Shown here: one piece after another, positions 2,866 to 41,945 of the stretch
Layout: each line of letters opens with the position of its first letter
How positions within the stretch are numbered: position 1 is the stretch's first letter
The notes under the pieces: generated by a model
Databases searched by the model: none
What the model was told of the DNA's origin: nothing
Seen by the model: the letters and a program-made list of their open reading frames with translations, nothing else
Translations under genes and position numbers: made by a program
Origin: a virus
Direction: 5' to 3' (one strand)
IMG/VR virus record: IMGVR_UViG_3300031251_000962
Span: 1 to 44,833 of that record
DNA: 44,833 nucleotides

Positions 2866-3033
2866 TTAACAGGAGGGCGCGGAGGAAACGGAGGTTCCTG
2901 AATCGGGAACTGAGTGACGTTTGGCGATTTTGCGAAGGGCGCGGTTAATGGCGTGGTAGAACGTGGCCCAGTCTTCAACGGTCCACTCTACTTTTGCGGC
3001 GGCTTTCCAATGATCAAGCTTCGGCTGTTTCAT
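2866..3033 (-). CDS. Small 55-residue protein between RHH regulator and integrase
   Basis: A 55-codon reading frame starting MKQPKLDHWKAAAKVEW. Its ATG overlaps the RHH regulator stop as ATGA (3030-3033), and its TAA ends 2 bp before the integrase start, so the three genes form one translational unit. The protein is basic and mostly helical (TFYHAINRALRKIAKRHS), with a Ser/Pro tail. The position and size would suit an excisionase-type or integrase-control factor, but I see no family signature. The tail residues VPDSGT are encoded by a copy of the 17-bp palindrome. Confidence 0.65.
   Translation of the reverse strand: MKQPKLDHWKAAAKVEWTVEDWATFYHAINRALRKIAKRHSVPDSGTSVSSAPSC
2894..2910. repeat. 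17-bp palindrome copy 1 (one mismatch)
   Basis: GTTCCTGAATCGGGAAC. It lies 30 bp upstream of the integrase start and inside the 55-residue gene, where it encodes VPDSGT on the minus strand. One half-site carries T in place of C. Confidence 0.8.
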
Positions 3034-3248
3034 TTTTTCTTTTTAATCGGCACCTCGTTTAGATCGATGGCGCGTGGAGTGTTTGGTGGATAAGCGCCTC
3101 GACCGGCTTCTTTTTCCCTGCGGTCAAGGTCCTCGCGAATCAGAACTTCAAGCAATTCGCTAAAGCTGTCGCAGAAACGTTTTTCCATCAGATCGCGCGC
3201 GGCATCAAGCAGGTTTGGGTTGATGCTGATTTGAACTCGTTTTTTCAA
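3030..3248 (-). CDS. Ribbon-helix-helix transcriptional regulator (leftward)
   Basis: A 72-residue protein with an Arc/MetJ-type ribbon-helix-helix fold. The strand KKRVQISINPNLL is followed by helix A (LLDAARDLMEKRF) and helix B (SFSELLEVLIREDLDRRE), with a Lys-rich tail. RHH proteins bind DNA as dimers, usually on direct repeats. It is the first gene of the integration operon and diverges from a second RHH gene at 3354. Its promoter contains two GTGTA repeats at 11-bp spacing. I infer an autoregulator or lysogeny-switch role. Confidence 0.75.
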   Translation of the reverse strand: MKKRVQISINPNLLDAARDLMEKRFCDSFSELLEVLIREDLDRREKEAGRGAYPPNTPRAIDLNEVPIKKKK

Positions 3249-3257
3249 GGTGATGAG

Positions 3258-3287
3258 GTTCTACACAATTCTTACACAGGTTGTCAA
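3258..3287 (-). promoter_or_regulatory. Leftward promoter with paired GTGTA operators
   Basis: Reading leftward, TTGACA (3287-3282) is followed after an 18-bp spacer by TAGAAC (3263-3258) as a possible -10 element. Between them, GTGTAA (3277-3272) and GTGTA (3266-3262) repeat at 11-bp spacing. The expected transcription start is within a few bases of the ATG at 3248, so the message would be nearly leaderless. The layout matches the rightward promoter at 3318-3347 step for step. Confidence 0.6.
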
Positions 3288-3317
3288 CGGCCGATTTTCT
3301 TTTTCGTAAAATAATTG

Positions 3318-3347
3318 TTGACGTTTGGTGTAATAGTTGTGTATGTT
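3318..3347 (+). promoter_or_regulatory. Rightward promoter with paired GTGTA operators
   Basis: TTGACG (3318-3323) is followed after an 18-bp spacer by TATGTT (3342-3347). GTGTAA (3328-3333) and GTGTA (3339-3343) sit at the same offsets as in the leftward promoter: TTGAC-N5-GTGTAA-N5-GTGTA. The predicted start coincides with the ATG at 3354, giving a leaderless message for the second RHH gene. This is the only strong promoter-like sequence I see for the early operon. Confidence 0.6.
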
Positions 3348-3353
3348 TGCAGC

Positions 3354-3569
3354 ATGAACAGAATTTCAGAGGGTAAAAAGGTGCGCGTGAATGTGAACCT
3401 GAGCGAGGAAGCAATTGCGATTGGCAAGCGATTGGCGCAGTCGGAATCGCGGTCATTTTCCAATTACTTGGAAACGGTGTTGCGTGCGGCTGGTAGCCCG
3501 TCTGCACCAAACCTCACGCAACCGCGCAGTGAGCGGCAACGTTCGCACAAACAAGGTGCGGGGAAATGA
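3354..3569 (+). CDS. Ribbon-helix-helix transcriptional regulator (rightward)
   Basis: A 71-residue protein from ATG 3354; a TTG start at 3315 would overlap the promoter and adds no domain. It has the RHH pattern: strand KKVRVNVNLSEE, helix A (EEAIAIGKRLAQSES) and helix B (SFSNYLETVLRAAG), with a basic tail. It is divergent from and distantly similar to the leftward RHH protein. The pair takes the place that repressor and Cro-like genes have in other temperate phages. It heads the long early operon, and its stop overlaps the next start as ATGA. Confidence 0.75.
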   Translation: MNRISEGKKVRVNVNLSEEAIAIGKRLAQSESRSFSNYLETVLRAAGSPSAPNLTQPRSERQRSHKQGAGK

Positions 3570-3892
3570 GCACCGGCCACCTTGGAAAGTCCTGCACGGC
3601 CCCGTTAACGAGCACCGATGTTTACGCGTTGGTCACATCAGTCAATCTTTCAAACCTCATCAGTTACGCATCGGCGCGGCGCGAACTGTTCGAGGCTTAT
3701 TTCTCGATCGTTTCCGAGATGCAGCCGCATACCCGGCATTTGGCGTTCCACGCCATCGCGTGTGAACTCGATTGGTCACACCGTGAAATGATTTGGGCCG
3801 CGGCTGGTTTTGAGAATCGACCGACGAGCGTTTGTGAGTTTGAACCGGCATCGCGGCGTTATGCCCGCGAAGAATCGGCGATTTCGGGCTGA
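3566..3892 (+). CDS. Unknown early protein, 108 residues
   Basis: A 108-residue protein coupled by ATGA to the RHH gene. I do not recognise the family. It is predicted largely helical (SARRELFEAYFSIVSEM; HLAFHAIACELDWSHREMIWAAAGF) with three cysteines and no clear metal-binding spacing. It lacks membrane segments and a signal peptide. As the second gene of the early operon it might be a regulator or host-takeover factor, but the sequence itself does not show that. Confidence 0.55.
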   Translation: MSTGHLGKSCTAPLTSTDVYALVTSVNLSNLISYASARRELFEAYFSIVSEMQPHTRHLAFHAIACELDWSHREMIWAAAGFENRPTSVCEFEPASRRYAREESAISG

Positions 3893-3915
3893 TGCGTGAT
3901 CCTCAGCCCAATAAC

Positions 3916-3954
3916 CCTCGCCCGCATCTGATTGGTTGCGGGTGCGCGGCGAGG
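3916..3954 (+). promoter_or_regulatory. Hairpin overlapping the ribosome-binding region of the VVA0879-like gene
   Basis: CCTCG-CCCGCA (3916-3926) pairs with TGCGGG (3937-3942) and CGAGG (3950-3954), with a 7-nt bulge on the right side. The right arm contains the GAGG that is the best Shine-Dalgarno candidate for the ATG at 3970, although the spacing is long. No T-run follows, so it does not look like a terminator. It could limit translation of the downstream gene. Confidence 0.4.
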
Positions 3955-3969
3955 AAAATTTAAAACGTT

Positions 3970-4347
3970 ATGAACACGATGACCCAAGAGGAGTTTTTGA
4001 ACGAGTGCCAGCGCAGATTCGGGCCGAAAGCTAAAGACTGGAAATTTGTATGCCCAGCTTGTGGCACGGTCCAGAGCGTTGGACAACTCAAGGACGCGGT
4101 GATTGCCAGTGGCGGCACCAAAGACGATGTGCACGGCTATATCGCGTTTAGCTGCATTGGCAGGTTCACACGGCAAGGCGATAAAGGAATTGCCTCAAAA
4201 CATCGCGGCGAGAAGTGGGACAAGGGCTGCAATTGGACGTTGGGCGGGCTTCTTACGATCCACAATCTGGAAGTGATCATGCCCGATGGAAAAAAGCGCC
4301 CGACTTTCGAAATAGCGGAGCCGGATGCGGAAATGCAACCGGCGTAA
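3970..4347 (+). CDS. VVA0879-family phage protein
   Basis: A 125-residue protein resembling the VVA0879 family of small phage proteins. It begins with QEEFLNECQRRFGPKAKDW, followed by a CPACG half zinc-finger-like motif, an AFSCIGR motif and a second region GEKWDKGCNW. The conserved cysteines suggest metal binding. Members are common in early regions of temperate phages, and their role is unknown. It is preceded by the hairpin at 3916-3954. An uncharacterised family, but the match to its pattern is good. Confidence 0.7.
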   Translation: MNTMTQEEFLNECQRRFGPKAKDWKFVCPACGTVQSVGQLKDAVIASGGTKDDVHGYIAFSCIGRFTRQGDKGIASKHRGEKWDKGCNWTLGGLLTIHNLEVIMPDGKKRPTFEIAEPDAEMQPA

Positions 4348-4374
4348 CACACCAACAACGATAGAAACACCCCT

Positions 4375-4527
4375 ATGGCAACATATCAGCGATGCCCGAA
4401 AGAAGTTGAAGAGTTAAAAAACGCCCTGCTTTGCCAATTTCCAGAACACAAACCGTTACTCGACGCGCGCGTGACATTTCTGGCCGGGCCTTTTCGACAA
4501 CAAATAACCGACTCCATAAAAATATGA
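4375..4527 (+). CDS. Small protein, possibly a truncated phage metallopeptidase N-terminus
   Basis: A 50-residue frame starting MATYQRCPKEVEELKNALL. It ends in a TGA that overlaps the next ATG (ATGA at 4524-4527), which supports its being translated. The first 35 residues (CPKEVEELKNALLCQFPEHKPLLDARVTF) resemble the start of the putative phage metallopeptidase family (PF18894-like). The metal-binding part is absent and the tail diverges after VTF. It may be a decayed or minimal relative. The family call is tentative; the reading frame is moderately supported by its coupling. Confidence 0.5.
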   Translation: MATYQRCPKEVEELKNALLCQFPEHKPLLDARVTFLAGPFRQQITDSIKI

Positions 4528-4853: not shown

Positions 4854-4867
4854 CGAAAGGCGTTTCT

Positions 4868-6340
4868 ATGGTCGACCCGCAATTTGAACAGGCCTGCGAG
4901 TATCCGGGCAAACTGGATGCTGTGGCAGTGGTTAATTCGCTCGGAAAGTATCTTAATAGCCTTGGCGTTAATCGAAAAATCAAGTGCCTCGAATGGGGCT
5001 GGAATGTTTGTGATGAGCCGGTGCTGATGAAGCAAGTTAACGAGATTCTGGATGATATCGCCAAGCGTGCCGGCATTACACCGCGCGCCGCCAGAGACGC
5101 CAGAGACGCCAGAGCCGCCAGAGACGCCAGAGACGCCAGAGACGCCAGAGCCGCCAGAGACGCCAGAGACGACACAACCGCCAGAGCCGCCATAGCCGCC
5201 ATAGACGCCAGAGCCGCCATAGCCGCCATAGCCGCCAGAGACGCCAGAGCCGCCAGAGACGCCAGAGACGCCAGAGACGCCAGAGACGCCATAGACGCCA
5301 TAGCCGCCATAGACCCCAGAGCCGCCAGAGACGCCATAGCCGCCAGAGACGCCATAGCCGCCAGAGCCGCCAGAGACGCCAGAGACGCCATAGCCGCCAG
5401 AGCCGCCAGAGACGCCATAGCCGCCATAGACCCCAGAGCCGCCAGAGACGCCATAGCCGCCAGAGACGCCATAGCCGCCAGAGACGCCATAGCCGCCAGA
5501 GACGCCATAGACGCCATAGACCCCAGAGCCGCCAGAGACGCCAGAGCCGCCAGAGACGCCATAGCCGCCAGAGCCGCCAGAGACCCCATAGCCGCCAGAG
5601 CCGCCAGAGACCCCAGAGCCGCCAGAGCCGCCAGAGACGCCATAGCCGCAATCAATGGTGCCGATGATACTATGGCTTTGCAACGTTTCGCTTCGTGGTG
5701 CATGCACGACTGGTGGTGGAATTGGGATATGTCGTATCTGTCGGCGGTTTATTTCGGCGCCAAGGAACTGAATCTGCCACAAGTGCTCGCTTGGTCTGAG
5801 CCGGTGTTTGAGGCGTTCAAAGCTGGCTGTTGGCAACTTTATTGGACTGATGAGGTCTTGTATTGGTTTGCCAAACCGACTGTGCATGTGGAGCAGATGC
5901 CAGGCGGTGGCCGCCGGATGCACAACGATAAGTATGCCGCGTTGGAATCTGACATTGAGAATCTTTATTTCTGGCACGGTGTGATGGTGCCTGCGTTTGT
6001 TGTGGTTCGACCTGATTGGATCACGGTCAAACACATCGAAACTGAGGAAAACGCCGAGGTGCGCCGGATTATGATCGAGCGGTATGGGATGGCGCGTTAC
6101 CTGGTTGATTCAGGGGCGAAGGAAATTCACCATGACGATTTTGGCACTCTCTATAGCAAGGAGATTCCCGGCGATGAACCGCTGGTGATGGTTAAGGTGG
6201 TTAACTCAACCGCTGAACCTGACGGGAGTTTCAAGGATTATTTCTTACGCGTGCCGCCGACGGTCACCCGCGCACGGGAAGCTGTGGCGTGGACGTTCGA
6301 TGTTCCCGAGGAACAATACGAACCTGTTTTGCAAACCTAG
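4868..6340 (+). CDS. DUF6745-like protein with long A-R/I-D/A tripeptide repeat insert
   Basis: A 490-residue protein of unknown function. An N-terminal helical part (residues 1-71) is followed by a low-complexity run of about 64 tripeptides, mostly ARD, AIA, ARA, AID and PRA (residues 72-263). A conserved C-terminal domain then covers about 265-490. The C-terminal end matches the DUF6745 pattern: LYSKEIPGDEPLVMVKVVNST, then PDGSFKDYFLRVPPTV, then TAREAVAWTF-like TRAREAVAWTFDV. It contains many Trp and His residues (CMHDWWWNWD). The repeat is encoded by a 9-bp minisatellite, so unit gain or loss keeps the frame. It is paired with the YRQGDVLI gene upstream. Confidence 0.75.
   Translation: MVDPQFEQACEYPGKLDAVAVVNSLGKYLNSLGVNRKIKCLEWGWNVCDEPVLMKQVNEILDDIAKRAGITPRAARDARDARAARDARDARDARAARDARDDTTARAAIAAIDARAAIAAIAARDARAARDARDARDARDAIDAIAAIDPRAARDAIAARDAIAARAARDARDAIAARAARDAIAAIDPRAARDAIAARDAIAARDAIAARDAIDAIDPRAARDARAARDAIAARAARDPIAARAARDPRAARAARDAIAAINGADDTMALQRFASWCMHDWWWNWDMSYLSAVYFGAKELNLPQVLAWSEPVFEAFKAGCWQLYWTDEVLYWFAKPTVHVEQMPGGGRRMHNDKYAALESDIENLYFWHGVMVPAFVVVRPDWITVKHIETEENAEVRRIMIERYGMARYLVDSGAKEIHHDDFGTLYSKEIPGDEPLVMVKVVNSTAEPDGSFKDYFLRVPPTVTRAREAVAWTFDVPEEQYEPVLQT
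5081..5650 (+). repeat. 9-bp minisatellite, about 64 units, inside DUF6745-like gene
   Basis: Tandem 9-bp units of the form GCC-AGA-GAC, with variants GCC-ATA-GAC, GCC-ATA-GCC, GCC-AGA-GCC and CCC at the third or first codon. Almost every unit changes only at a few positions, and larger blocks of units recur (for example the ATA-GAC-CCC-AGA blocks near 5306, 5420 and 5516). All Arg codons in the array are AGA and all Ile codons ATA, unlike the flanking coding sequence. The opposite strand is open in all three frames, which is a by-product of the repeat. Confidence 0.95.
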
Positions 6341-6354
6341 TTGCCCAGACGCCC

Positions 6355-6989: not shown

Positions 6990-6991
6990 CC

Positions 6992-7561
6992 ATGAGCGAT
7001 AACACAAAACGTTGGCCGTTGGAATTGGCAGCATTCACCGCGCGCGGTGTCATGGAGCAATTACGACCGTTCTGTGAGCAAATTGAAATCGTTGGCAGCA
7101 TCCGTAGGCAGAAACTCGATGTTGGCGACATGGAGTTGCTTTATGTGCCAAAGTGCAGCCTTGTGCCAGATGGTTTGTTTGACCAAAAGGTAGAGGACAA
7201 GGCGGATAAGTTTGTAAGTGAACTGATCAAGTCTGGCGTGCTGGCTTTCCGTCCCAATGTGAATGGCGCGGTTACGTGCGGCCCCAAAAACAAATTTTTG
7301 ATTCACGTCGCCAGCGGCATCCCGTTGGACCTGTTTGCTACCAATCATAAAAATTGGTGGGTTTCGCTGGTCATCCGCACCGGGGGCAAAGACACCAACC
7401 TTGCACTGACCACTGGGGCGCAACGATTCAATAAAAGCCTCAACGCCTACGGTTGCGGCGTGACCGACCGTGCGACCCGTGAAGTAACCCCGGCAACATC
7501 GGAGCGGCACGTGTTTGAATTGTGCGGCGTGCCCTACAAAGAGCCACACGAACGAGCATGA
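6992..7561 (+). CDS. Pol-beta/PolX-like nucleotidyltransferase
   Basis: A 189-residue protein with the minimal nucleotidyltransferase core of DNA polymerase X. The GSIRR motif (Gly35-Ser36) is followed by VGDMEL, where Asp46 and Glu48 would bind metal, and IPLDLF supplies Asp113 as the third carboxylate. Next comes the thumb-like NWWVSLVIRTGGKDTNLAL segment seen in phage homologues. The first metal pair is D-x-E, not D-x-D. It lacks the HhH domains and PHP exonuclease of cellular PolX. A role in DNA repair or end filling is possible. It sits in the early operon and is coupled by ATGA to the next gene. Confidence 0.8.
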   Translation: MSDNTKRWPLELAAFTARGVMEQLRPFCEQIEIVGSIRRQKLDVGDMELLYVPKCSLVPDGLFDQKVEDKADKFVSELIKSGVLAFRPNVNGAVTCGPKNKFLIHVASGIPLDLFATNHKNWWVSLVIRTGGKDTNLALTTGAQRFNKSLNAYGCGVTDRATREVTPATSERHVFELCGVPYKEPHERA

Positions 7562-8322
7562 ACAAAGCTTTCCGCAAATTGGTTGAGTCGCAGCGGTCCA
7601 CCGTGGACGAAGTGTTGCAGTGCTTTGGCGACATGCCACAAATCACCCGCAACTACTCGTGCGACATGGATTGGCTGCATGTTCTGCAAACGCACCAGAC
7701 CGATTTAATCGAGGCTTCCCGCATGGTCGAAGGTGACTACGGCAGGATTGCGAAGATGCGCCGTAAGCTCGCGTGCATCGTGGCCACCTGCGAAGCGTGG
7801 GAACGGAGGCTGAGCCAATCGTGCGGCGATGAACATCCGCCGGTTAACAAAGCTGCACGCAAAATCGCGCGGTGTCATTGCCGTGGAAATATCAAGTTCC
7901 CGAATCGGGAACCGGCGCCGGTCGTTGGATTGGTTGTCAAAATGTTCAAGGCGCAATTCGCGCTGTTGGTTAAATCCGGCGCGAAACTGCAGACGGTTCG
8001 ACCTACACCAAAGCGAATGCCAAAAGTTGGCCAGAGGATCAGCCTGCGCCAGTGGATTGGTAAACCGTATCGAAGCAAGCAACGGGTTTTGCGCGAGTCG
8101 GTCATTACCGATGTGCAAACGATTTGGTTCGATGGCTGCACGATTCGATTAGATGGAAAGAACATCGCCGAGGACTTTTTTCCGACAACAGCAGAGGAAG
8201 CTTTTGCCCGCGCGGATGGCTTTGAGAATTTGAATGCGATGGCCGATTGGTTTCGCGCCACGCACCGCTCGTTGCCGTTCCAAGGAATCGTCATCAAGTG
8301 GAGTCCGACCAAAACACCATGA
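7558..8322 (+). CDS. Two-part protein with C-terminal ASCH-like domain
   Basis: A 254-residue protein from ATG 7558, which overlaps the upstream stop. The N-terminal part (1-110) is helical and unknown, with an R/K-rich C-x-C end (KIARCHCRG). The C-terminal part (about 122-254) resembles the ASCH (PUA-like) fold of phage proteins: FKAQFALLVKSGAKLQTVRPTPKRMPKVGQRISLRQW, then WFDG and a DGFENLNAMADWF ending. ASCH domains usually bind RNA or modified bases. A copy of the 17-bp palindrome (7896-7912) encodes the linker FPNRE between the two parts, so this may be a fusion of once separate genes. Confidence 0.65.
   Translation: MNKAFRKLVESQRSTVDEVLQCFGDMPQITRNYSCDMDWLHVLQTHQTDLIEASRMVEGDYGRIAKMRRKLACIVATCEAWERRLSQSCGDEHPPVNKAARKIARCHCRGNIKFPNREPAPVVGLVVKMFKAQFALLVKSGAKLQTVRPTPKRMPKVGQRISLRQWIGKPYRSKQRVLRESVITDVQTIWFDGCTIRLDGKNIAEDFFPTTAEEAFARADGFENLNAMADWFRATHRSLPFQGIVIKWSPTKTP
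7896..7912. repeat. 17-bp palindrome copy 2 (perfect)
   Basis: GTTCCCGAATCGGGAAC. It sits in the linker between the two parts of the ASCH-like protein and is read there as FPNRE. Confidence 0.85.
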
Positions 8323-8885
8323 GCAACAATCGCACAGCATACCCTTTGAGTTGGCCACCAGGTTGGCCGAAAACAGAACCGCTAAAACGCCAATCCGGCC
8401 AGTTCAAACAGACGTTGGCCGCGGCACTGGCCAATCTGAAAAGGCAGATTGAATTGATGGGCGGAAAAAACGTGCTGCTCTCGAGCAATTACACGCTCGG
8501 ACATGACAACCCAAAAGAATCTGGCGTGTGTGCCTATTTCGAATACGAAGGCCAGCAGATGGCTATTCCGTGCGACCGCTGGCACCGCATTGAACACAAC
8601 ATTCAGGCCATCGCTCTGACCGTTGAGGCAATGCGGGGCATGGAACGTTGGGGAGCCAAACACATGATCAAAGCGATGTTCTCAGGGTTCAAAGCACTGC
8701 CGGACATTCGAAAGCCGTGGCACGAAGTGCTTGGAGTTCCACCAAACGCATGCTCCGCCGATATCAAACAAGCCTACCGCCAGCGAAGTAAGGCTGCTCA
8801 CCCAGACGTTGGCGGCAGTGACGCGCAAATGGCTGAGGTAAATGCTGCCTACGAGATTGTGAAGCAACTAGGACTCGTGTTTTAA
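8319..8885 (+). CDS. Phage J-domain protein
   Basis: A 188-residue protein from ATG 8319 (ATGA overlap). The N-terminal region starts YPLSWPPGWPKT and contains NVLLSSNYTL and VCAYFEYEGQQMAIPCDRWHRIEHN, a pattern found in phage proteins that precede a J domain. The C-terminal 60 residues form the J domain (WHEVLGVPPNACSADIKQAYRQRSKAAHPDVGG) with the HPD motif at 161-163 that stimulates Hsp70 ATPase. It may recruit host DnaK during replication or assembly. The call is strong; the target is unknown. Confidence 0.85.
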   Translation: MSNNRTAYPLSWPPGWPKTEPLKRQSGQFKQTLAAALANLKRQIELMGGKNVLLSSNYTLGHDNPKESGVCAYFEYEGQQMAIPCDRWHRIEHNIQAIALTVEAMRGMERWGAKHMIKAMFSGFKALPDIRKPWHEVLGVPPNACSADIKQAYRQRSKAAHPDVGGSDAQMAEVNAAYEIVKQLGLVF

Positions 8886-8889
8886 CAAA

Positions 8890-9684
8890 ATGAAAAATCT
8901 ATTCCGACAAAATTTGAACGATGGCGGGTCGATGTTTTGGCATGGCCGCGCCCGCTGGCATTCACGATTAGAGCCGTTTTGCGAATGGTTGTTTGGCCGC
9001 GCGGCTACGACGTTCCACTTGCAGTTGTGGTTTGGTCATGGTGACAACGAAGATGGTGTGATGCTCTCCTTTGGCCTGCCGTGGCTGTTTTCGGTCTATA
9101 TCGGCTTGGAAGGGGTTTTCCGCTGCAAAGAGTGTTACTCCGGCGTTGGCATCCACAGTTCCGCAATTTGGTTTTATCCGTTGCCATACTCGATGAGTAC
9201 GACCACGAGCGACCCGTGGTATCGGCACACGTATTGTTGGAACTTTCCGTGGCAGCTTGATTGGTGGTCAACAGAAGTGTTGGAGCACAAAGCGAATCTT
9301 CCGTGTCTCGCGCAAACGGTGTGGTCTGAAAATAAAAAGAACCGCCGGCGCGGTTTCGATATGGAAGGAATGCGCACGAGGGCCGAAGCGGAGCTTTCAG
9401 TGTCGCAGGACTATCCTTACACCTACAAACGCAAGAGCGGAGAGATTCAAGCTCGCACCGCGACTGTGCATGTGGTGCGCATGACCTGGCGCGCGCGATG
9501 GTGGCCGATCATTCCGCGACAGATGGTCAGGACTTCGATTGAGGTCAAATTTTCGGACGAAGTTGGCGAAGGTATCGGCACGTGGAAAGGCGGCTGTATC
9601 GGCTGTGGTTACGACATGCTGCCCGGTGAAACACCTTTGGAGACGTTGCGGCGGATGGAGCGCGAAAGAATTTTCAAACGCTGA
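8890..9684 (+). CDS. Conserved phage protein of unknown function
   Basis: A 264-residue protein rich in Trp, Phe and Tyr. It has the pattern of a phage family I have seen but cannot name: LSFGLPWLFSVYIGLE, HSSAIWFYPLPYSMSTTTSDPWYRH and a C-terminal KMVRT-like segment (PRQMVRTSIEVKF) followed by GCIGCGYDMLPGETP. It is predicted as beta-rich and soluble in spite of its hydrophobic patches. The start lies 4 bp after the J-domain gene. No catalytic motif is evident. Confidence 0.6.
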   Translation: MKNLFRQNLNDGGSMFWHGRARWHSRLEPFCEWLFGRAATTFHLQLWFGHGDNEDGVMLSFGLPWLFSVYIGLEGVFRCKECYSGVGIHSSAIWFYPLPYSMSTTTSDPWYRHTYCWNFPWQLDWWSTEVLEHKANLPCLAQTVWSENKKNRRRGFDMEGMRTRAEAELSVSQDYPYTYKRKSGEIQARTATVHVVRMTWRARWWPIIPRQMVRTSIEVKFSDEVGEGIGTWKGGCIGCGYDMLPGETPLETLRRMERERIFKR

Positions 9685-9689
9685 CCGCC

Positions 9690-10763
9690 ATGACGTCAAC
9701 AGCGACACAACAATTCAGCAGTGTTGAACGGTATTCTATAAAAAATGAAACGAGAACGGCCGGCGGCGCGGGACCGTCGACAATAGCTCCGGAAAAGGAG
9801 AACTCGCATGGGCAGTCAACAGACAGATGTATGCCCGAGGTTGCGAATCCCGCACGTTTTCAAACTGTAGCCGCGCTGGTCAGATCAGAAATCGTCCGTG
9901 CGGATTGGACCGAGCGCCAATCGCGTGTCGCCGAATTCATGGTGACTGCCACACTCGACCGTGGCCGCCAAGAGGTCAAAGGCATTAACCTCGAGGAATT
10001 GGGCGGTTTGCTGGGTATTTCCAAAGGCAACGTGTCCGACGTGTTCTATGAGTTGCAACTGTGCGGGTTCCTGCAGGTGATTGACTCGCCAATGGCCGGG
10101 AAGGTTTATCGCGTGTTGCCGGCCAGCGAACATTGGTCGGTGCGATGGCGTTACGATCGCGCGGCGTTTGACGGGTATTTGCGTGCGCTCGACGTGGCCA
10201 GCGGCCAAGCCCAGAACGAATTGTTTGAGCCAGAGCCGGACCTCAAAGCCACCATCGCTGAAACGCAGTTGGAAGCGATTGCAGCCAAGAACCTGGTTGC
10301 GCGGCTGAGTGTCAAACCAAAATCGCCTTCGAGCCCCTCGAGCAGTACTTCGAATCGAATTATTCGAGATAATGATTTAGAAGTTTCGAATAAATCGAAT
10401 TTCGAGGGGATTTCGAGTGATTTTACAGACGGTGAAAAATCTGTCAATAACTTTCCGGTTCCCGATTCGGGAACTGCCCCAAAATGCACTGGCCGGGAGT
10501 GGTTTGAAGTCTACAACGAGTCGATGAAACGCAACTGGGCAGACGACGGGTATCTGTACGAAAAGTTGCGCCTGAAAACATCGCTGTTTGAGGAGCTGTG
10601 GGAAGGCAAGACGCGCATGGCTCGTGAATTTTGCCTGCTCTTTTCGCGAAATCGCCAGCGGGCCAAAGAACTGGCCGCAATTGCGGTGCAGCGTGATCAC
10701 CCGTCGAAATGGCTTAACACTTCTGTTTCAAACGAGCTGCTTGGAAAGGAATGGCACAAATGA
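9690..10763 (+). CDS. Winged-helix replication initiator-like protein
   Basis: A 357-residue protein that most likely opens the phage origin, in the style of lambda O-type initiators. A winged HTH lies at about residues 55-155 (ALVRSEIV..., ISKGNVSDVFYELQLCGFLQV). A Ser-rich linker covers about 205-265, and a C-terminal helical domain about 270-357 (WFEVYNESMKRNW...). The linker is encoded by AT-rich DNA with repeated TTCGA motifs and a copy of the 17-bp palindrome, as expected if the origin lies within the gene. An in-frame ATG at 9831 is an alternative start, because residues 1-47 are low in complexity. It is coupled by ATGA to the next gene. Confidence 0.65.
   Translation: MTSTATQQFSSVERYSIKNETRTAGGAGPSTIAPEKENSHGQSTDRCMPEVANPARFQTVAALVRSEIVRADWTERQSRVAEFMVTATLDRGRQEVKGINLEELGGLLGISKGNVSDVFYELQLCGFLQVIDSPMAGKVYRVLPASEHWSVRWRYDRAAFDGYLRALDVASGQAQNELFEPEPDLKATIAETQLEAIAAKNLVARLSVKPKSPSSPSSSTSNRIIRDNDLEVSNKSNFEGISSDFTDGEKSVNNFPVPDSGTAPKCTGREWFEVYNESMKRNWADDGYLYEKLRLKTSLFEELWEGKTRMAREFCLLFSRNRQRAKELAAIAVQRDHPSKWLNTSVSNELLGKEWHK
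10326..10475. other. Candidate replication origin with TTCGA iterons
   Basis: Within the initiator gene, 10326-10417 holds several TTCGA-type motifs (10328, 10349, 10363, 10385, 10401, 10412) plus CTCGAG and ATCGAAT relatives. They lie in DNA clearly richer in A and T than its surroundings. The 17-bp palindrome GTTCCCGATTCGGGAAC follows at 10458-10474. The encoded protein is a disordered linker here, which leaves the DNA free to carry an origin. This is inference by analogy with lambda. Confidence 0.45.
10458..10474. repeat. 17-bp palindrome copy 3 (perfect, opposite orientation)
   Basis: GTTCCCGATTCGGGAAC, the exact reverse complement of copy 2. It lies at the edge of the candidate origin and encodes VPDSGT in the initiator linker. 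Confidence 0.85.
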
Positions 10764-10984: not shown

Positions 10985-10987
10985 GTT

Positions 10988-11352: not shown

Positions 11353-11385
11353 CGTTGCAACAAAGTTTCACTGAGGGTGCGGTTT

Positions 11386-13816: not shown

Positions 13817-13845
13817 TTGCCGATTTAAACACAGAGGACACAAAG

Positions 13846-14046: not shown

Positions 14047-14049
14047 TTG

Positions 14050-14322
14050 TATGAGCACTGAAAGTCAACCCATGGGAATCCGCGACACGATCAAAGCCGT
14101 TGTGCAGGTCGTGACCACGCGCAAACTGCCCAATCCGCTGGCGCAAACTCCAAAAGACACCTCGCGCGCCGCACTGGTCAAAGAGCTGAACGATTGGTGG
14201 ATGAACGCGCGCAAGTTTTGGGAACCGGTCTTTAAAGAGATCGAAGAGGATATGATTTTCGCGGGCGGCAAGCAGTGGCCTGACGGTGTGCTCGGAGCGG
14301 ACGGCAGTTTGCCCTATCAAGC
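14050..14322 (+). repeat. Direct repeat copy 1 of portal gene start (273 bp)
   Basis: By eye, every base from 14050 to 14322 matches 15107-15379, with an offset of 1057 bp. The copy starts one base before the portal ATG and ends inside codon 91. The flanking bases differ at both ends. The perfect match across 273 bp means a very recent event, ongoing gene conversion or an assembly join. Confidence 0.95.
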
Positions 14323-14652: not shown

Positions 14653-14654
14653 AT

Positions 14655-15106: not shown

Positions 15107-15379
15107 TATGAGCACTGAAAGTCAACCCATGGGAATCCGCGACACGATCAAAGCCGTTGTGCAGGTCGTGACCACGCGCAAACTGCCCAATCCGCTGGCG
15201 CAAACTCCAAAAGACACCTCGCGCGCCGCACTGGTCAAAGAGCTGAACGATTGGTGGATGAACGCGCGCAAGTTTTGGGAACCGGTCTTTAAAGAGATCG
15301 AAGAGGATATGATTTTCGCGGGCGGCAAGCAGTGGCCTGACGGTGTGCTCGGAGCGGACGGCAGTTTGCCCTATCAAGC
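15107..15379 (+). repeat. Direct repeat copy 2 of portal gene start (273 bp)
   Basis: Identical to 14050-14322. This copy is continuous with the full portal gene. Together the two copies bracket 14323-15106, which holds three small genes and the foreign tail of the truncated portal copy. Confidence 0.95.
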
Positions 15380-26659: not shown

Positions 26660-26770
26660 GGGAACACATTGGGGGTGGCCGGTTTCAGGCAATTCCCTAC
26701 GGGGGGCGGCCGGTGTTGAATGACTGCCCATTGGCGGTGTTAGGTTTCCGGCAACTCCCAATGTGTTCCC
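26660..26770. repeat. Nested inverted and direct repeats in non-coding gap
   Basis: GGGAACACATTGGG (26660-26673) is exactly inverted at 26757-26770. Pairing continues inward to about 26682/26748 with one G-T pair and one mismatch. Inside, 26667-26697 and 26729-26759 are 31-bp direct repeats with six mismatches. The block does not code in a convincing frame. A full 17-bp palindrome follows 15 bp later. It may be a structured RNA leader for the tail genes or the remains of a small mobile element. Confidence 0.75.
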
Positions 26771-26785: not shown

Positions 26786-26802
26786 GTTCCCGAATCGGGA
26801 AC
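26786..26802. repeat. 17-bp palindrome copy 4 (perfect)
   Basis: GTTCCCGAATCGGGAAC in the non-coding gap 88 bp before the tail nozzle gene and 15 bp after the nested repeats. The outer edge of those repeats also carries half-sites (ATCGGGAAC at 26657-26665 and GTTCCC at 26765-26770). Confidence 0.85.
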
Positions 26803-26890: not shown

Positions 26891-29035
26891 ATGAGTCAGC
26901 AAGTCATAGACGATTTTCGCGGTGGTCTGGATGTGCGCAAACACATGCTTTCCGCGCCCGCCGGCACATTGACGGACGCCGTCAATTGCCACATCACGCC
27001 TGGTGCGGAGATTGAGAAACGCAAAGCCTTCCAGCGCGCGGCTGGATTGACCGGCACCTTTGGGTTGCTCGCGTTGGCCAATAGCCTGATGGTTTTTGAC
27101 AGTACCGATCGGAGCGGCACTTTCCCACAGGCCTTGCTGGGTCAGACCGTGGCTTTTCAGCGGTTACAACACCCGGCGATGCTCGATGGTAGCGGCACGG
27201 CCTACGACGCCGCCAAGCACGCCATGACCGCGATTATCGCCACGACGCAATTTGGCGGCAAAGCGGTTGCGGCGGCGATATTCACGGACGGCAAAAGCTA
27301 CGGTTATTACGACGGCGGTTTGATGTTCGATTTGACTGACGGCCTTGTGCTTTCTCAATTGAATACCACCGCCAAGATTGCTGCCGCTCTGGCTTCCGCC
27401 GTGAATCGAACGGCCAATTACACGGCCACAGTCAACGGATCCACGGTGACCATCAATGGCACTAACGGCGCGGCGTTCAGCTACGACACCGACAATGTGA
27501 GCGCTGCCGGGACCATGGCTGTTTCCAAGCTGAACGATCCACAGCCCGGAATCGACGCCGCCCAAGCCACTGGTAAATTCATGGTCTTGCGTGGTCAGGT
27601 CGGCGGCTATTTTCTCGGAGCAACGGTTAACGGCGTTGACATAACCTCGCTCGGTGCCAAAGCCAATATCGCAGGCGCAGCCGTGCGGACGGTCAGCCGC
27701 GCGCGCGCAGGCTCGATCGTGACGCTGGTTTACGGGTTTGTTCACAGCTTGAGCGTTGGCGACATCGTAGAAATCAGCAACGTTGGCGGGGCAAACTATA
27801 ACGGCGTGTTTGCTGTCACGAGCGTCCCCGACAAAGTCACGTTCACTTACGATTGCGGAGTGGTGGCCAATGAGGCGACCACGGCGGATGTCAATGGGCA
27901 GGTCAAAATCGGCGGGCTCAATCCTTTGCTGGTCAATGGCGCGCAGAATTCCATTTACCCGCAAACCTTCGTGCCGTGGGCAACCAGCGACGAAGCCACC
28001 GCCATTGTCGTTGCGCGCATCATCAACGCAGTAACGGGCTACAGCGGCTATTCTGCCGTTGCCCAAGGCAAGCACGTGGTCTTGACCGCCACGGCCAGCG
28101 GCGCGGCGATTAACAACGCCCAGGTGGGTGTGAGCACGGGCGCGACATTTTGCGCAGATGATTGCAGTTTTGCTTTTGCGGGCAGTTTGTTTGTCATCAA
28201 TGGAATCACGATTGATGGGACGCAAATACTAACGAAGGCGCATCCCTTTCCGTCGGTGAAATCCGCGTCTTACTCGCGGGCGTTAACGCTGGTGACATTC
28301 AATTGCGGCACGGCTCATGGATTGACCACGGGTGATAAGGTGGTGATTGCCGGGTGCGCAAATGCAAACGTAAACGGCACCTTTACGGTGACTGTAACGA
28401 GCACGACGCAATTTACTTTCAACACGGCCACGAGCGGGACAATTGCGCTGGCAGCGGACACGGCTGGGACGGTAACGATCGACGCTACGCAGGCGGCGTT
28501 CTACGCGCGGCTGGTGTCGGATATTAACTCGACGACGAGCGCTTATGCGGCGGCTACAGATGGAAAGCTCCTTTATTTGACGAGGACGGTTACAAACACA
28601 TCCCTTGGAGACAGCACGGTTGTGGTGACGCACGGCCCGAACGTGGTGGTTACGACAGTTGGCACAAGCACGCTGACGGTCAAGGTGACCAAAACGGCTC
28701 TGAGCCTGTCGCTTGTCACGGATAATTTTGGAGGCACCCTCAGCGCGGTGGTTGGCCCTGTGCGAGCCTTAGCCAGCGGCGGCCTCGGGCCGTACGTGTT
28801 CCAATGGCAGTTCGTTAACGGTACCGCCTCTATCGCCGCCAACACACCGGATTCGGACACGACGAGCTTTGGAATTGGCGCGCAACCACGCGATGCGCAG
28901 AGCACGGTCAGCGCACAGCCTCAGCAGAAGTCAGCCAGCTTCGTGTGCAAGGTCACGGATGCAAATGGGAAAACCGGATTTTCACCGTTCGTAACGATCA
29001 AAATTACCTCTCGCCCGACGGCGACAGCCCGATGA
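26891..29035 (+). CDS. Tail nozzle protein, N-terminal part (split pair)
   Basis: A 714-residue protein from ATG 26891. The opening QQVIDDFRGGLDVRKHMLSAPAGTLTDAVNCHITPGAEIEKRKAF is the classic start of podovirus tail nozzle or tubular B-type proteins. The rest is beta-rich and contains two modules of the form A/V-H-G/S-L-x-x-G-D-x-V-x-I-x-x-x, then YNGVFAVTSV or VNGTFTVTVT. An Ig-like FQWQFVNG segment lies near the C-terminus. The later nozzle blade motifs are missing and occur in the gene at 29327. It probably closes the tail tip together with that gene. Confidence 0.72.
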   Translation: MSQQVIDDFRGGLDVRKHMLSAPAGTLTDAVNCHITPGAEIEKRKAFQRAAGLTGTFGLLALANSLMVFDSTDRSGTFPQALLGQTVAFQRLQHPAMLDGSGTAYDAAKHAMTAIIATTQFGGKAVAAAIFTDGKSYGYYDGGLMFDLTDGLVLSQLNTTAKIAAALASAVNRTANYTATVNGSTVTINGTNGAAFSYDTDNVSAAGTMAVSKLNDPQPGIDAAQATGKFMVLRGQVGGYFLGATVNGVDITSLGAKANIAGAAVRTVSRARAGSIVTLVYGFVHSLSVGDIVEISNVGGANYNGVFAVTSVPDKVTFTYDCGVVANEATTADVNGQVKIGGLNPLLVNGAQNSIYPQTFVPWATSDEATAIVVARIINAVTGYSGYSAVAQGKHVVLTATASGAAINNAQVGVSTGATFCADDCSFAFAGSLFVINGITIDGTQILTKAHPFPSVKSASYSRALTLVTFNCGTAHGLTTGDKVVIAGCANANVNGTFTVTVTSTTQFTFNTATSGTIALAADTAGTVTIDATQAAFYARLVSDINSTTSAYAAATDGKLLYLTRTVTNTSLGDSTVVVTHGPNVVVTTVGTSTLTVKVTKTALSLSLVTDNFGGTLSAVVGPVRALASGGLGPYVFQWQFVNGTASIAANTPDSDTTSFGIGAQPRDAQSTVSAQPQQKSASFVCKVTDANGKTGFSPFVTIKITSRPTATAR

Positions 29036-33125: not shown

Positions 33126-33142
33126 CTCGAGGAAATTTTATT

Positions 33143-34240: not shown

Positions 34241-34245
34241 CAGTT

Positions 34246-37200
34246 ATGGCGGATGTCATCGATTTTGAACCCGAGGTGGCTGCGCCGCCGGCCAATACCA
34301 GCGTCGCGCCGAAGATTGATTTCGAGCCGGAGGTGGCAGCATCACCTGCTAATGCGGATGCCGCACCGCGCATAGACTTTGAACCTGACGAGCCCCGCAC
34401 ACGATCACCATTGTCATATCGAGTGACCGACAACGCTAATCCGGGCGGTGCACCACCGGGAGTTTATGGCTCCGCTCGCGATGTCCTGCAAGAGCCCACG
34501 TTGATGCAGCGTTTTCGCAATCATCCGTTGGTCACAAAATTCTTGGGCGAGCCACTGCCAGAAGTGCGCGAAATGCAGCGGGATATGGGCGGCGGCCAAA
34601 CCACGCCAATGGACTTGGTAAATACCGGGTTCAAATTCGCGGCGATTCCACCGCAAGCCGCGGAGCCGATGCGAAAAGGTAACGAGTGGCTTTCGAAAAA
34701 GTTCCTGCCCGACGAAATTGGCGGCATCGAGGAGGGTGCAGTAGATGCCGGGCTCAATTTCCCGATCGCGGCGGCGCCAGTCGCCTTTGGTGAGAAACTT
34801 GGCACAACGTTGCTTGGTGTTTTCTCTGGCGACTACGTCTTGTCGTTGCCCGACCAAAAAGCCGCGTTCGACCAGGCAATGCAGTCTGGCAACAAACGTG
34901 AGGCTTACAAGATTGCCACCAGCGCCATTTTAAACGCCGCGATTCTTGGTGTTGGCGGTGCGCACGAAGCCACGCGCATTCGTTCGACGGAGCCGCCGGC
35001 GCGGCTACAGGATTCGTTTTACCGACCAGTAGAAGGTGAGCAAGCGCCCAAACCTTCAGGCGATGTTGCGCCAAACCAAACGATCAATTTAGAGCAGCCG
35101 AAAATCGACTTTGTTCCCGAATCGGGAACTAGTCCAACGCCTCCGCAAGCAACTGATGTTCAACCGCCAAAAAGTGGACTAAATACGCCGCCAGAAAATA
35201 AAACTAGTCCACCGCAAAAACCAGTGGCGACGGTGGGCGATGTCATCGGCCAAAAATTGGACGAAATCAAAACGTTGCTGGCTCAACACAAGGCCACGCC
35301 AGAAACGCCCGCGGACAAACCAGCGACCATTACCGAAAAATTTACCGACGAATTGCGCGCCAACGCCGCCGCGCTACCTCCGGAGACTGCACAGCCAGCC
35401 GAAGCAACACCATCAGCCGCACCCGCACCTTCACCAAACGCGCGGCGACGTGAAAAACGAGAAATCGGCGGCGATTACACGTTGCTTGATGCGGTGAGAG
35501 AAAACGGTGGATTGGGAGGCCCGGACCTGAGCACGGCCATGAAACGAATGGCAGCCGGTGAAACACCGCGCAAGATCGCTGGCGAATACGGCGCGGATTA
35601 TGACGCGCTCGATGGCATTCTCGAAGAGCTGCGGTCAGCCGCTGAACGTGGTCGGCACCGCAAAGAATTCAAGGACCTTGCCAAAGCATATCGCGCCGCG
35701 GGCTTTGGCGGCGAACACACCCGTATTGACGAGACGTTGGACGGGATTCAAACGGGGCACCGGCAAGGACTGGGTTTTGCTGGTGGAGTGCCAGACAGCG
35801 CCAGTGAATTGGTTGAGCGCGCATGGGACGCCGCGCACCCGGCTAACCAAAACAAGTTCCCGACTGACCCGGAGGGTAAAGCAAAATTGTTTTGGGACAC
35901 GTCCATGGATCCGGCGAGTAAAGCTGGTTTGAAAAAAATAAACGCTGACCAGCTCAAGGTCGGTGACACGTTCAGGCTGCGCGGCAAAGGGCTCAGCCAC
36001 GAAGAATTTGAGGTTAGGCACATTGACCCGGACACCGGCACAGTTTCAGTTAAAGACGGACCGACATTTGGTTGGCAGGAATTACCAGAAGGCACTGATA
36101 TATTTGTCAAAGAGCACGTTCCCGGAAACGGCACGTTACCAAAACCCGCGCGGATGTCGGTTAAACCCGGCGGTGATTTGTTTTCTTCGCCCGAATCGGT
36201 TGCAGACCAAAAGGCGCGGCTTGCTGGTGAGAAAGAAGCCGCTGACCAGAAAGCCGCTCGCGAACAAATGTTGGCCCGACAGGCGAAACCGTTAACCGGT
36301 CAGGACGTCGACACGACCAAGGAAATGTTCGGCGGTGAGGTCCGAGAGGACAAAGCCGGTCAACGTTCGCTTTTCTCGGTTAAACGCAGTGCTGATGTCG
36401 CTGAGCCCGGCGACCCGTCATTGTGGAACATACCCGACAACGAATTGGAAGGCCGGTTGGCAGGCGCAACACCTGGCACTCCCGAGCATCACAATTTGGA
36501 GTTGGAAGCCAAAGCGCGCGGCATGATTGACAAAACGACTGCCGAGGAAGAAACTGAACAGCGCAATGAAACCCGGCAACACCGCGAAGCCCAAGACAAA
36601 GAAATTTCGCGACGGCAGCAAGATAACGAATCTGCCCGGCGGCGCGCAGGTGATAGACGAGAGCCAGTATCGCCCGGGACCGAGAGTAAACCAGAGGGTG
36701 AAGGCGCACTACGACGACCCGCCTCCTCCTCCAATCGGCCTGAATTAACGCGGCCATCTTACACGGGACTACCGGAAAAACTTCGCGCGTTCGAAGCGAA
36801 TTTACCCAAGTGGCAATTAGCCATCGACAATGCACGTACCGCTGCAGAGCGCGCGGTGCGACGTCCAGACGGTTCAATCGATTTCAGGAAAACACCCACG
36901 CGATTGTTGGACCTGATGTTTGCTGGTGGCGATGCCAGTTACGATCGACACGTTGCCTTGCGCGAAATCCAGAACGCCAGCCACGTTTCTTATCGTGACT
37001 CGGTGCCGCACCCGACAGAGTCGGCAGCCGGTCGTAGCCAACGCATGGCCAACGAAGCTCGCCGTAGCGCGGAAATATCAGCGGTTCAGCGTCAGGCACA
37101 TCCGCATTTCGAAAAATACTTTAAACCGGAACCGTGGCAGCAACCCGGACGGTTAAAGGTCAGTGACAAAGCTGCCGCGCACGGTTCCGACAGGACGGCC

Positions 37201-40200: not shown

Positions 40201-41139
40201 GGACGCGACAGGCACCTGGTTGATTTGAACCGGTTGCTATTCTCCGCGCCGGATTTCCTGATTTCACGCGCAAAGGTCGTCGGTCAGGCAATGAAGCCAT
40301 ACGGGCGAGAGCAGCAACGTTTTTTGGTGACTCAGGCCGCCATGCTGTATATCGGCGCGCGCGTGTTCAATAAGTTGCTCGATGATGATCCACACTGGGG
40401 CTGGGACCATGCGTTTTCGGTCATCTACAAAAACCGGGAATACTCGGTGCGCACCATCGTCAGTGACATGCACCACATGATGACTGACGGGCAATCGTTT
40501 CTTGCTGGCCGACTCGGCCCGTGGGTGCGCGCTGGCCACGACGTTGCTACCGGTAGAGACATGCGGACCGGTGCAAAAATTCGAACGTTTACCGACGCTC
40601 CCGGCTTGCGGCGGGCAGAATTGGCAATCCGCAGTTTGGCTGAGTGGCTGTCACCCATCGGCTCGGAGGGATTGTTGCCAGGCAAAGCGAAACGCGAGCA
40701 GACTGCGCTGAGCACGTTGGGGCAGGCGACGGTCGGACTTGGCAGCCAAAAGTTCACAGCGCAAACGCAAATGTATGAGTTGGCGGACAAGTTCAACCGC
40801 AAACAACCCGATGCGCGCGCGCAGAACTACGCGACTGAGCGAGAATCCAGAGTCGGGACTGAAAGTGTCTACAGGGCGCTGAACGATTATCTCGAGGCGG
40901 GGAAGTTGGACGAAGCGAGCAAAGAATATCAATCGTTGGTCAAAGACGGTCACAAGCCCGAAACGATCGAGGGGCATTATAGCTCGCTCGAAAACCGACC
41001 ATTTACCGGCGATGCTGCCCGCGAAGAGAAGTTTAAGCGGCTAATGACTCCTGAGCAAAAACAGGTCTATAACCGCGCCAAAGCAGAGCGCGCACAATTA
41101 AAGGCAGGCTTCGACAAAATCAAACAGTCATCGAAATAA
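34246..41139 (+). CDS. Giant polyvalent virion protein
   Basis: A 2297-residue protein, likely injected with the DNA. Residues 1-60 contain three IDFEPE/D repeats. About 80-250 has membrane-like helices (FGEKLGTTLLGVFSGDYVL). A disordered Pro-rich zone follows, in which the 17-bp palindrome encodes VPESGT. Near residue 1058 lies HETVGHLG (HExxxHxG), seen in zinc-peptidase-like parts of large polyvalent phage proteins. The C-terminal third has the layout of the LPD38-type domain: KFALGTFHMFTLGEHVIFHG, FLISRAKVVGQAM, FLVTQAAMLYIGARVFN. It occupies the place of the tape-measure-like ejection protein and is the last rightward late gene. Its end overlaps the convergent gene by 12 bp. Confidence 0.72.
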   Translation: MADVIDFEPEVAAPPANTSVAPKIDFEPEVAASPANADAAPRIDFEPDEPRTRSPLSYRVTDNANPGGAPPGVYGSARDVLQEPTLMQRFRNHPLVTKFLGEPLPEVREMQRDMGGGQTTPMDLVNTGFKFAAIPPQAAEPMRKGNEWLSKKFLPDEIGGIEEGAVDAGLNFPIAAAPVAFGEKLGTTLLGVFSGDYVLSLPDQKAAFDQAMQSGNKREAYKIATSAILNAAILGVGGAHEATRIRSTEPPARLQDSFYRPVEGEQAPKPSGDVAPNQTINLEQPKIDFVPESGTSPTPPQATDVQPPKSGLNTPPENKTSPPQKPVATVGDVIGQKLDEIKTLLAQHKATPETPADKPATITEKFTDELRANAAALPPETAQPAEATPSAAPAPSPNARRREKREIGGDYTLLDAVRENGGLGGPDLSTAMKRMAAGETPRKIAGEYGADYDALDGILEELRSAAERGRHRKEFKDLAKAYRAAGFGGEHTRIDETLDGIQTGHRQGLGFAGGVPDSASELVERAWDAAHPANQNKFPTDPEGKAKLFWDTSMDPASKAGLKKINADQLKVGDTFRLRGKGLSHEEFEVRHIDPDTGTVSVKDGPTFGWQELPEGTDIFVKEHVPGNGTLPKPARMSVKPGGDLFSSPESVADQKARLAGEKEAADQKAAREQMLARQAKPLTGQDVDTTKEMFGGEVREDKAGQRSLFSVKRSADVAEPGDPSLWNIPDNELEGRLAGATPGTPEHHNLELEAKARGMIDKTTAEEETEQRNETRQHREAQDKEISRRQQDNESARRRAGDRREPVSPGTESKPEGEGALRRPASSSNRPELTRPSYTGLPEKLRAFEANLPKWQLAIDNARTAAERAVRRPDGSIDFRKTPTRLLDLMFAGGDASYDRHVALREIQNASHVSYRDSVPHPTESAAGRSQRMANEARRSAEISAVQRQAHPHFEKYFKPEPWQQPGRLKVSDKAAAHGSDRTAVEQAVQPISKRLAGARVNIVQSESELPEHLLKQIRSQGAEGRTEGVFDPETGKVHLIADNIDSPQRAREVFLHETVGHLGVRKVMGAHFDGFMDGVFSGHWDSPTMRSVVEDYGFNLKNLEDRRAAAEEVVARLAENPGTDPTLWQRVVAQFKQWARQLGMKLDVSESDIRSALRSAERSLETSSPETSEGTARFSFRELEKEGEADRPKWLSKDDGNEVWKLARDLVNAGDTPDHAIRVALSHLQSMGNKDFNFDEARRFAASMKPTLEGIKSGAAEPVDNTNATEALPVSSSSTSEEAGKMDKPKWQTLKDDLDKRHEELIQAIRDYGTAKAGKLEPTEGVDYPLGQKRIVDERSKKERYQAKMLAGVRYREAQRKLRSNPDYIADIILSHQRIGEKISAAGKGDAARELISAAEEIQNELSKCPQNIVAGVYEKMQQDGRLPKDTSGDLPQASRSLSSLVDWLRGQDIDSPKKTLADRFNLVRIAKERAQSFGDAVSKKWIGAQSAWKAFVESYKSPPADTDFRRTIKDWSLAEETVGHETRQWEDEINQKVSDPVRRKGISHYLFAKGDQALLDHWATSVPERFKAEFEAARSLTDSEKAVAQKIKQEFDQKLLDATLAGMVDKGRENYGVPMLWDKPPKDIPSGDSVDEPGKQSAGNWRAKLDPRDPFFALQRSHDSYFDGIMAGGVPLTTDVGKLVAVYNRAFSKNLSSRAVIWALKDAKAADGLPVVKVSGSAKIVPQGTGRAYLVDSKSRSASDATVDGRPYMSVDHWALRNWKFVANTIEGAIDPETGKPFPPGKVLVQGDMLVHPDHYGFLKNELQQPWRDPKTNELTGLGKVVAPLLKTKMFLTSSKFALGTFHMFTLGEHVIFHGVNPFMNGFRIDLREPEQASAVRNGLLLGFDREQTQFQEGLGTHGGLWSKVPGLGDAMAKMTDFVFKTYLPTMKMKLWQTVNERNLKRYGPDSRAENKLTTDQVAELSAQQVNAALGGQNWRLMGRDRHLVDLNRLLFSAPDFLISRAKVVGQAMKPYGREQQRFLVTQAAMLYIGARVFNKLLDDDPHWGWDHAFSVIYKNREYSVRTIVSDMHHMMTDGQSFLAGRLGPWVRAGHDVATGRDMRTGAKIRTFTDAPGLRRAELAIRSLAEWLSPIGSEGLLPGKAKREQTALSTLGQATVGLGSQKFTAQTQMYELADKFNRKQPDARAQNYATERESRVGTESVYRALNDYLEAGKLDEASKEYQSLVKDGHKPETIEGHYSSLENRPFTGDAAREEKFKRLMTPEQKQVYNRAKAERAQLKAGFDKIKQSSK
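35113..35129. repeat. 17-bp palindrome copy 5 (perfect)
   Basis: GTTCCCGAATCGGGAAC. It lies in the disordered zone of the giant virion protein and encodes VPESGT directly after an IDF segment like those of the N-terminal repeats. Confidence 0.85.
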
Positions 41140-41391
41140 TTGGGCGAACACAGTCGCGATATCTGAACCGCTTGGGCACGACGACACGACGTAAAGCAGA
41201 TAGAAAACGTAGGCCACGTAATTCAATCCCCTGAATCCGAGCCACCATGAGTGTCGGTAGCTCTGAGCTAAAAAGAATGATTTATCGTAGGTGAGCGGCG
41301 GCTCAGCAAACATGGCTTTAAAACAGACAAAGACGCTGACAACGACTGCTACAACCGCCGGAATCAACATGAGAACGAAGATCGGTTTCAT
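41128..41391 (-). CDS. Small membrane protein, end of leftward operon
   Basis: An 87-residue protein from ATG 41391. Two hydrophobic segments (PIFVLMLIPAVVAVVVSVFVCFKAMF and GLNYVAYVFYLLYVVSS) flank a polar loop rich in aromatic and basic residues (SYRHSWWLGFRG). It lies 8 bp after the secreted-protein gene in the same operon. Its stop overlaps that of the giant virion gene. Candidate superinfection-exclusion or lysogenic-conversion protein; no family recognised. Confidence 0.55.
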   Translation of the reverse strand: MKPIFVLMLIPAVVAVVVSVFVCFKAMFAEPPLTYDKSFFLAQSYRHSWWLGFRGLNYVAYVFYLLYVVSSCPSGSDIATVFAQLFR

Positions 41392-41399
41392 AAGCTCAG

Positions 41400-41927
41400 T
41401 TAACGGGTTGCTCTCACCCGAAAAAATCGGTTCGTTGTCGTCACACCATAGGTTCCGGGTTGTGCAGCGTTCCATGTTACCATGTCGGCGCTGGATTCCA
41501 AGGCGATCGTGACCGGGCCATTTGTATCGGATGGAATTACCACGGCGGTTGAAGACACGGTTTGCAGACACGATTTTGGCGGCGCGTTGTCGGTAATCGA
41601 AACGGTGCAGATAACCGAGCTTGGATATGGTGCGCTGACCTGAATGGTTGCAGGACCCGCAATGACAGGAAGGTTTCCGCTGATGCTCAGTGCGTTGGTG
41701 ATAACTCCATCAAGGGCCACTGTCATTGTGGCGTCGAGCGCCTTGGTCGAGTAGCTTGTGCCGCCAAAATAGGAAACCCTTGCTACCTGGTTGCTCCCAA
41801 CGGCGAGCGGCGCGCTGTCGAAGGATTGCGCGGCTGTGCTGACCGCGTAGAGGGTCACTGTCTGACCGTGAGCGGTTATGGAGGCGATGGAGACAAGCAG
41901 GAGCATTATAGCGGACTTGGTTTTCAT
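41400..41927 (-). CDS. Secreted beta protein with Verrucomicrobiota-type C-terminus
   Basis: A 175-residue protein with a signal peptide (MKTKSAIMLLLVSIASITAHG) and a Ser/Thr/Val-rich beta region. The C-terminus VTIALESSADMVTWNAAQPGTYGVTTTNRFFRVRA matches the 'SS.D...W......G....NRFFR.RA' pattern I associate with secreted Verrucomicrobiota proteins. It is probably a host-derived lysogenic-conversion gene. A copy of the 17-bp palindrome (41929-41945) ends one base before its ATG, so binding or hairpin formation there would block translation or transcription. Confidence 0.65.
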   Translation of the reverse strand: MKTKSAIMLLLVSIASITAHGQTVTLYAVSTAAQSFDSAPLAVGSNQVARVSYFGGTSYSTKALDATMTVALDGVITNALSISGNLPVIAGPATIQVSAPYPSSVICTVSITDNAPPKSCLQTVSSTAVVIPSDTNGPVTIALESSADMVTWNAAQPGTYGVTTTNRFFRVRATR

Positions 41928-41928
41928 G

Positions 41929-41945
41929 GTTCCTGAATCGGGAAC
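41929..41945. repeat. 17-bp palindrome copy 6 (one mismatch)
   Basis: GTTCCTGAATCGGGAAC, the same variant as copy 1. It ends one base from the start codon of the secreted-protein gene and covers the place of its ribosome-binding site. Confidence 0.8.

Follow-up and report, generated by a model that had tools for sequence, protein, structure and literature searches.

A 17-bp palindrome that occurs six times in a phage genome is probably, at odds that we put at about two in three, the iteron of P0001, a divergent lambda-O-like replication initiator encoded in the same DNA; the copy at 10458 would mark the replication origin and the other five would be ectopic initiator sites, most likely titrating the protein. 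The DNA analysed, hereafter the window, is the whole stretch of 44,833 nucleotides of IMG/VR record IMGVR_UViG_3300031251_000962. It is most likely a prophage, because it comes from an IMG/VR record and carries at its left end an apparent host MFS transporter gene with an integrase adjoining.

Copies of the palindrome in the window

The initial annotation listed six coordinates for the palindrome, and all of them are correct. Four copies are exact, GTTCCCGAATCGGGAAC being present at 7896, 26786 and 35113 on the plus strand and at 10458 on the minus strand, and two, at 2894 and 41929, carry one change and have the GTTCCT form, GTTCCTGAATCGGGAAC. All six share the centre GAATC and are palindromes except at the central base, so that the sites have no real orientation. 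The bases that flank them are unrelated between sites; hence the repeated unit is 17 bp. When up to three mismatches were allowed, 0.19 matches were expected from 100 dinucleotide shuffles, with a largest shuffle count of 2, and the claim that six copies are not due to chance is borne out. Tandem repeat and duplication aside, GTTCCCGAATCGGGAAC is the sole 17-mer with four exact copies in the window. The apparent host flank (MFS transporter, 64-900) holds no copy of the palindrome.

The leftmost of the six copies (2894..2910) forms the last codons, read as VPDSGT, of a 55-aa ORF on the minus strand (2866-3033), and precedes the integrase ATG (2863) by 30 bp. The copy at 7896..7912 is read in frame as FPNRE and falls between the two parts of ORF 7522-8322, the C-terminal part of which is ASCH-like (a weak match). 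The copy at 10458..10474, exact on the minus strand, is read as VPDSGT in the linker of the plus-strand P0001, and that at 26786..26802 is intergenic, 88 bp upstream of the ATG at 26891. The copy at 35113..35129 is translated as VPESGT near residue 290 of a 2297-aa virion-type protein, within a proline-rich linker, and the last one (41929..41945) is one base away from the ATG at 41927 of the minus-strand ORF 41400-41927. The reading frames that had been assigned, VP(D/E)SGT at 2894, 10458 and 35113 and FPNRE at 7896, are as stated, and so is the proximity of three copies to start codons, which they precede by 90 bp or less. A candidate seventh, looser copy, GTTCCTTTTTTGGGAAC, is found at 1725..1741 inside the integrase gene, where it is read in frame as VPKKGT; it may be a chance match.

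Two other structures were observed close to these sites. A strong hairpin with 23-bp arms (26660-26770; DNA fold z -5.6) lies between late genes and adjoins the copy at 26786. Another inverted repeat, of the TACACAA...TTACAC type, is located at 3250-3350, with a minus-strand gene on one side and a ribbon-helix-helix gene (at 3354) on the other, in what looks like a divergent operator region.

The palindrome as a probable iteron of lambda-O-like genes

A scan of viral contigs with GTTCCYGAATCGGGAAC yielded 18 stretches, among them clusters of five copies within 260 bp (L018), four (L016), three (L013) and six (L012); L010 has seven copies of GTTCCC-N5-GGGAAC, and further contigs with clusters came from a two-copy pattern search. 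The clusters all lie within one gene of about 290-430 codons. Six of ten cluster genes match Bacteriophage replication protein O (PF04492) with E-values no higher than 0.002, and four of these six exceed the curated cut-off of this family. In addition to the window, a family profile picked out the O-like gene in 16 contigs, where it contains all or nearly all of the copies; L304 was added later. In these 17 other contigs the GTTCCC-N5-GGGAAC or GTTCCA form is found inside a lambda-O-like gene, usually as 2-7 clustered copies, and in several of them the 17-mer is identical to that of the window. Perfect-arm copies are confined to the O gene in 16 of the 17 O-gene records, several of which are fragments. 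The cluster copies are read as VPxSGT or FPNRE, the same readings that are seen in the window.

The palindrome consists of six-base arms around a five-base centre, and this 6-5-6 layout is also that of the annotated lambda iterons (TCCCTC-aaaac-GAGGGA), of the GBK2 iterons (GTTGGT-aaaac-ACCAAC; seven copies in the O-like gene, zero outside), of the HK97 iterons (two strict copies, zero outside) and of the six GTTCCA-variant copies that L304 carries inside its own O gene. Terminase relatives (L168-L176) and relatives of the dnaJ gene were also tried as motif carriers and lack the motif, L304 with its GTTCCA variant excepted. Among the named phages of INPHARED no P0001 relatives were found, and the doubled motif gave only five weak Mycobacterium phage matches; a P0001 peptide-pattern search of the viral contigs gave none. 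In the genomes of the phylum of L061, the single clear match to O-like genes is the one of L061 itself.

P0001, the proposed reader of the sites, is encoded on the plus strand at 9690..10763. Over 165 residues it shares 40% identity with the initiator of L010, the one with seven iterons, and it matches the L013 initiator across the DNA-binding part at an E-value of 7e-12. A profile built solely from O proteins that match PF04492 detects P0001 at 2.4e-16, while one made from O proteins of a more canonical kind, lambda included, gives 0.046 only, so that P0001 appears to be a distant cousin of lambda O. No match was obtained in Pfam (E up to 0.1), PF04492 included, or in PHROG. The N-terminal part of P0001 is a winged-helix DNA-binding domain homologous to that of O proteins; AlphaFold predicts, with confidence, a winged helix at residues 54-145, then a disordered linker (207-267) and a helical C-terminus of low confidence, and Foldseek returns MarR-like winged helices. 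The predicted recognition helix, ISKGNVSD, is of the type [ST][KR]GN[VILM], which is present in most readers of GTTCC arms and in 0/5 O proteins with other arms, a comparison that common descent confounds.

The copy at 10458, the proposed origin iteron, adjoins the 80-bp stretch with the highest AT content in the window (10346..10425; 69% AT, top 0.02%), which we propose as the origin unwinding element. The P0001 gene holds one iteron only, against 2-7 in most relatives, and not an array of several; no second type of clustered iteron was found anywhere in the window. As judged from sequence, the P0001 gene, the copy at 10458 and the AT-rich stretch are laid out as in a lambda ori, with a single iteron (10346-10474). 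An earlier remark that one copy sits by a candidate origin fits the copy at 10458 and does not fit the one at 26786.

Replication by lambda O and P needs the host DnaJ. A J-domain (DnaJ) protein gene is present at 8247..8885 on the plus strand, two genes upstream of P0001, and its relatives sit near the O genes of L018 and L304; by analogy, the J-domain protein may be a dedicated partner of the O-like initiator. No gene for P or for a DnaB-type helicase or loader was recognised adjoining P0001, the small downstream ORFs having been scanned in part. Directly upstream of P0001, at 8890-9684, there is a match to the Acb3 family of CBASS inhibitors (PF25187, E 6e-32).

Dispersed copies and alternative explanations

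In the window one copy lies inside the O-like gene and five lie outside it, in unrelated genes and gaps. The lineage of G033 and L011 appears to have a similar arrangement. G033 carries three copies in the O gene and two outside, at 2874 and 21202, and L011 is a 13-kb fragment related to it (TerL 74%). Both have a copy at the orthologous 3' end of terL, with 11 of 12 arm bases in agreement and a different centre, and the alignment of their terL DNA, with 66% identity over this part, stops at the palindrome. This suggests that the dispersed site at the end of terL, a single site, has been kept. G435, structurally the nearest relative of the window (capsid 65%, dnaJ 62%, terL 50%), has neither the O-like gene nor the palindrome.

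We propose that P0001 binds the 17-bp palindrome as its own iteron, that the copy beside the AT-rich stretch in its gene marks the replication origin, and that each of the other five would be a single ectopic binding site. These ectopic copies would most likely keep the initiator off the origin, free initiator dropping as copies of the phage build up; those just upstream of the integrase gene, of ORF 41400-41927 and of the gene at 26891 might also allow the initiator to affect local transcription. Binding of a lone O iteron has been seen in vitro (PMC7466680), and lambda is arrested by plasmids that carry its origin, apparently because these titrate O (PMC4488673). Five extra single sites per genome copy would thus be expected to cut the free initiator. 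For DnaA, titration by dispersed sites has been shown on the E. coli chromosome, according to PMC12371093. The support obtained in this analysis comprises the agreement of the motif with O-gene iterons, the homology of the protein, the anatomy of the origin, the dispersal of the copies and one orthologous dispersed site in a comparable lineage; from these we infer the binding of P0001 to the sites and the role of the dispersed copies. A more tentative idea, towards which we are rather sceptical, is that the iterons of an origin array have spread to isolated positions throughout the genome, so that one initiator would both start replication at an origin with a single iteron and control initiation or gene expression through the dispersed sites, as a phage parallel to dispersed DnaA boxes.

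The initial annotation considered a phage regulatory site of the repressor or stoperator kind. This idea holds in part; the likely reader of the site, however, is a replication initiator, the motif being a lambda-O-type iteron that is clustered in initiator genes of other phages. If the copies were operators or stoperators of a repressor or of another non-initiator regulator, the copy in the O gene would be just one of them. In favour of this are the three copies that precede start codons by less than 90 bp and the case of G042 (IMGVR_UViG_3300024283_000014; L278-L281), a phage whose 66-kb genome encodes a family A DNA polymerase and where seven dispersed palindromes of the GTTCCCAA-N-TTGGGAAC type, several of them just upstream of genes, are found together with no recognisable O gene; its relatives are without these dispersed palindromes. 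Either the G042 palindromes are read by another protein or an O-like reader was missed, and this phage is the strongest reason for caution on the initiator reading. We nevertheless consider the operator explanation unlikely for the window, given that the identical 17-mer is an iteron inside the O genes of other phages, that no candidate repressor specific for the palindrome was found and that the ribbon-helix-helix gene at 3354 adjoins a different inverted repeat. The dispersed copies could still act in a stoperator-like manner. In the giant virion proteins of the window and of G042, whose C-termini are 34% identical, the palindrome falls at about residue 290 and about residue 295, respectively, a single case that may be a coincidence.

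It also seems improbable that the dispersed copies are functionless leftovers, that is, origin iterons that were duplicated into linkers and gaps able to tolerate them. Several copies do occupy disordered linkers or the ends of genes, where they are translated as a harmless VPxSGT, all six have the same centre, and relatives lack dispersed copies; however, no flanking sequence was copied along with the 17 bp, and the G033/L011 site, one site only, stayed where it was as the DNA around it diverged to about 66% identity. Very little weight can be given to a host-genome repeat, to transcription terminators or to chance. The copy at 26786 scores as terminator-like, but the remaining copies have no following T-run, and the terminator reading, which fits one copy only, was rejected; chance is countered by the six copies found against 0.19 expected. 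As for a tiny host repeat, which the annotation had also entertained, 50 other viral contigs, picked for one RAWTY-centred match, hold exactly one copy each, a count taken as the background level, and bacterial genomes with a match hold one to a few copies, none of them amplified, among the matches listed, which do not include the window's own host. Over the genomes covered, a host repeat appears very unlikely. The proposal of a partition or packaging site found no support.

Relation to known replication and regulatory systems

With lambda O and ori-lambda (PF04492; HK97, P22 gene 18 type) the window shares a winged-helix initiator and a palindromic iteron, with the same arm and centre lengths, placed in the middle of the initiator gene by an AT-rich stretch. 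In contrast, lambda ori has an iteron array where the window has one iteron and five scattered single copies, the window protein is too divergent for a direct Pfam match, and the window encodes a J-domain protein close by, while neither a P nor a DnaB gene was recognised. Because both the iteron array and the direct Pfam match are missing, the window would be described as working like the lambda-O origin system and not as a plain member of it. The dispersed DnaA boxes of E. coli, as presented in PMC12371093, are likewise initiator sites beyond the origin that are spread over the replicon, and sites of iteron form are present by sequence outside the proposed origin of the window; here, however, the replicon is a phage with a handful of sites and a lambda-O-like protein, and the titration role is putative. 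The stoperators of cluster A mycobacteriophages resemble the window copies in being many copies of a short site across a temperate phage genome, but those are oriented 13-bp sites for a repressor and number up to 30 (PMC6550527), whereas the window sites are symmetric, six in number and match initiator iterons. A stoperator in the strict sense is an asymmetric, oriented site bound by an immunity repressor, and the window sites are palindromic.

O-type iterons are known as origin arrays, and a dispersed arrangement of them was not found in the literature searched, which covers part of the field. The motif and its likely reader resemble the known lambda O and its iterons; the variant part would be the dispersed arrangement. 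If the dispersed single iterons are maintained, a small replicon carrying a handful of 17-bp sites would allow a test of initiator titration or of initiator-driven gene control, both long debated for DnaA. In addition, the motif offers a route to the O-like initiator and the origin in phages whose initiator has no Pfam match.

Other features of the window were observed in passing. A long 9-bp tandem array at 4961-5700 (ORF 4868-6340) encodes an ARDA/AIAA-type repeat ahead of a DUF6745 domain. A 273-bp exact direct repeat (14050-14322 and 15107-15379, 1057 bp apart), the second copy of which is the start of the portal gene, may be a recent duplication, an insertion or an assembly artefact. The right end, 42152-44833, carries a radical-SAM gene and a phosphoadenosine phosphosulfate reductase-like gene, and the gene at 43102-43644 is 65% identical to a gene near the integrase of G435.
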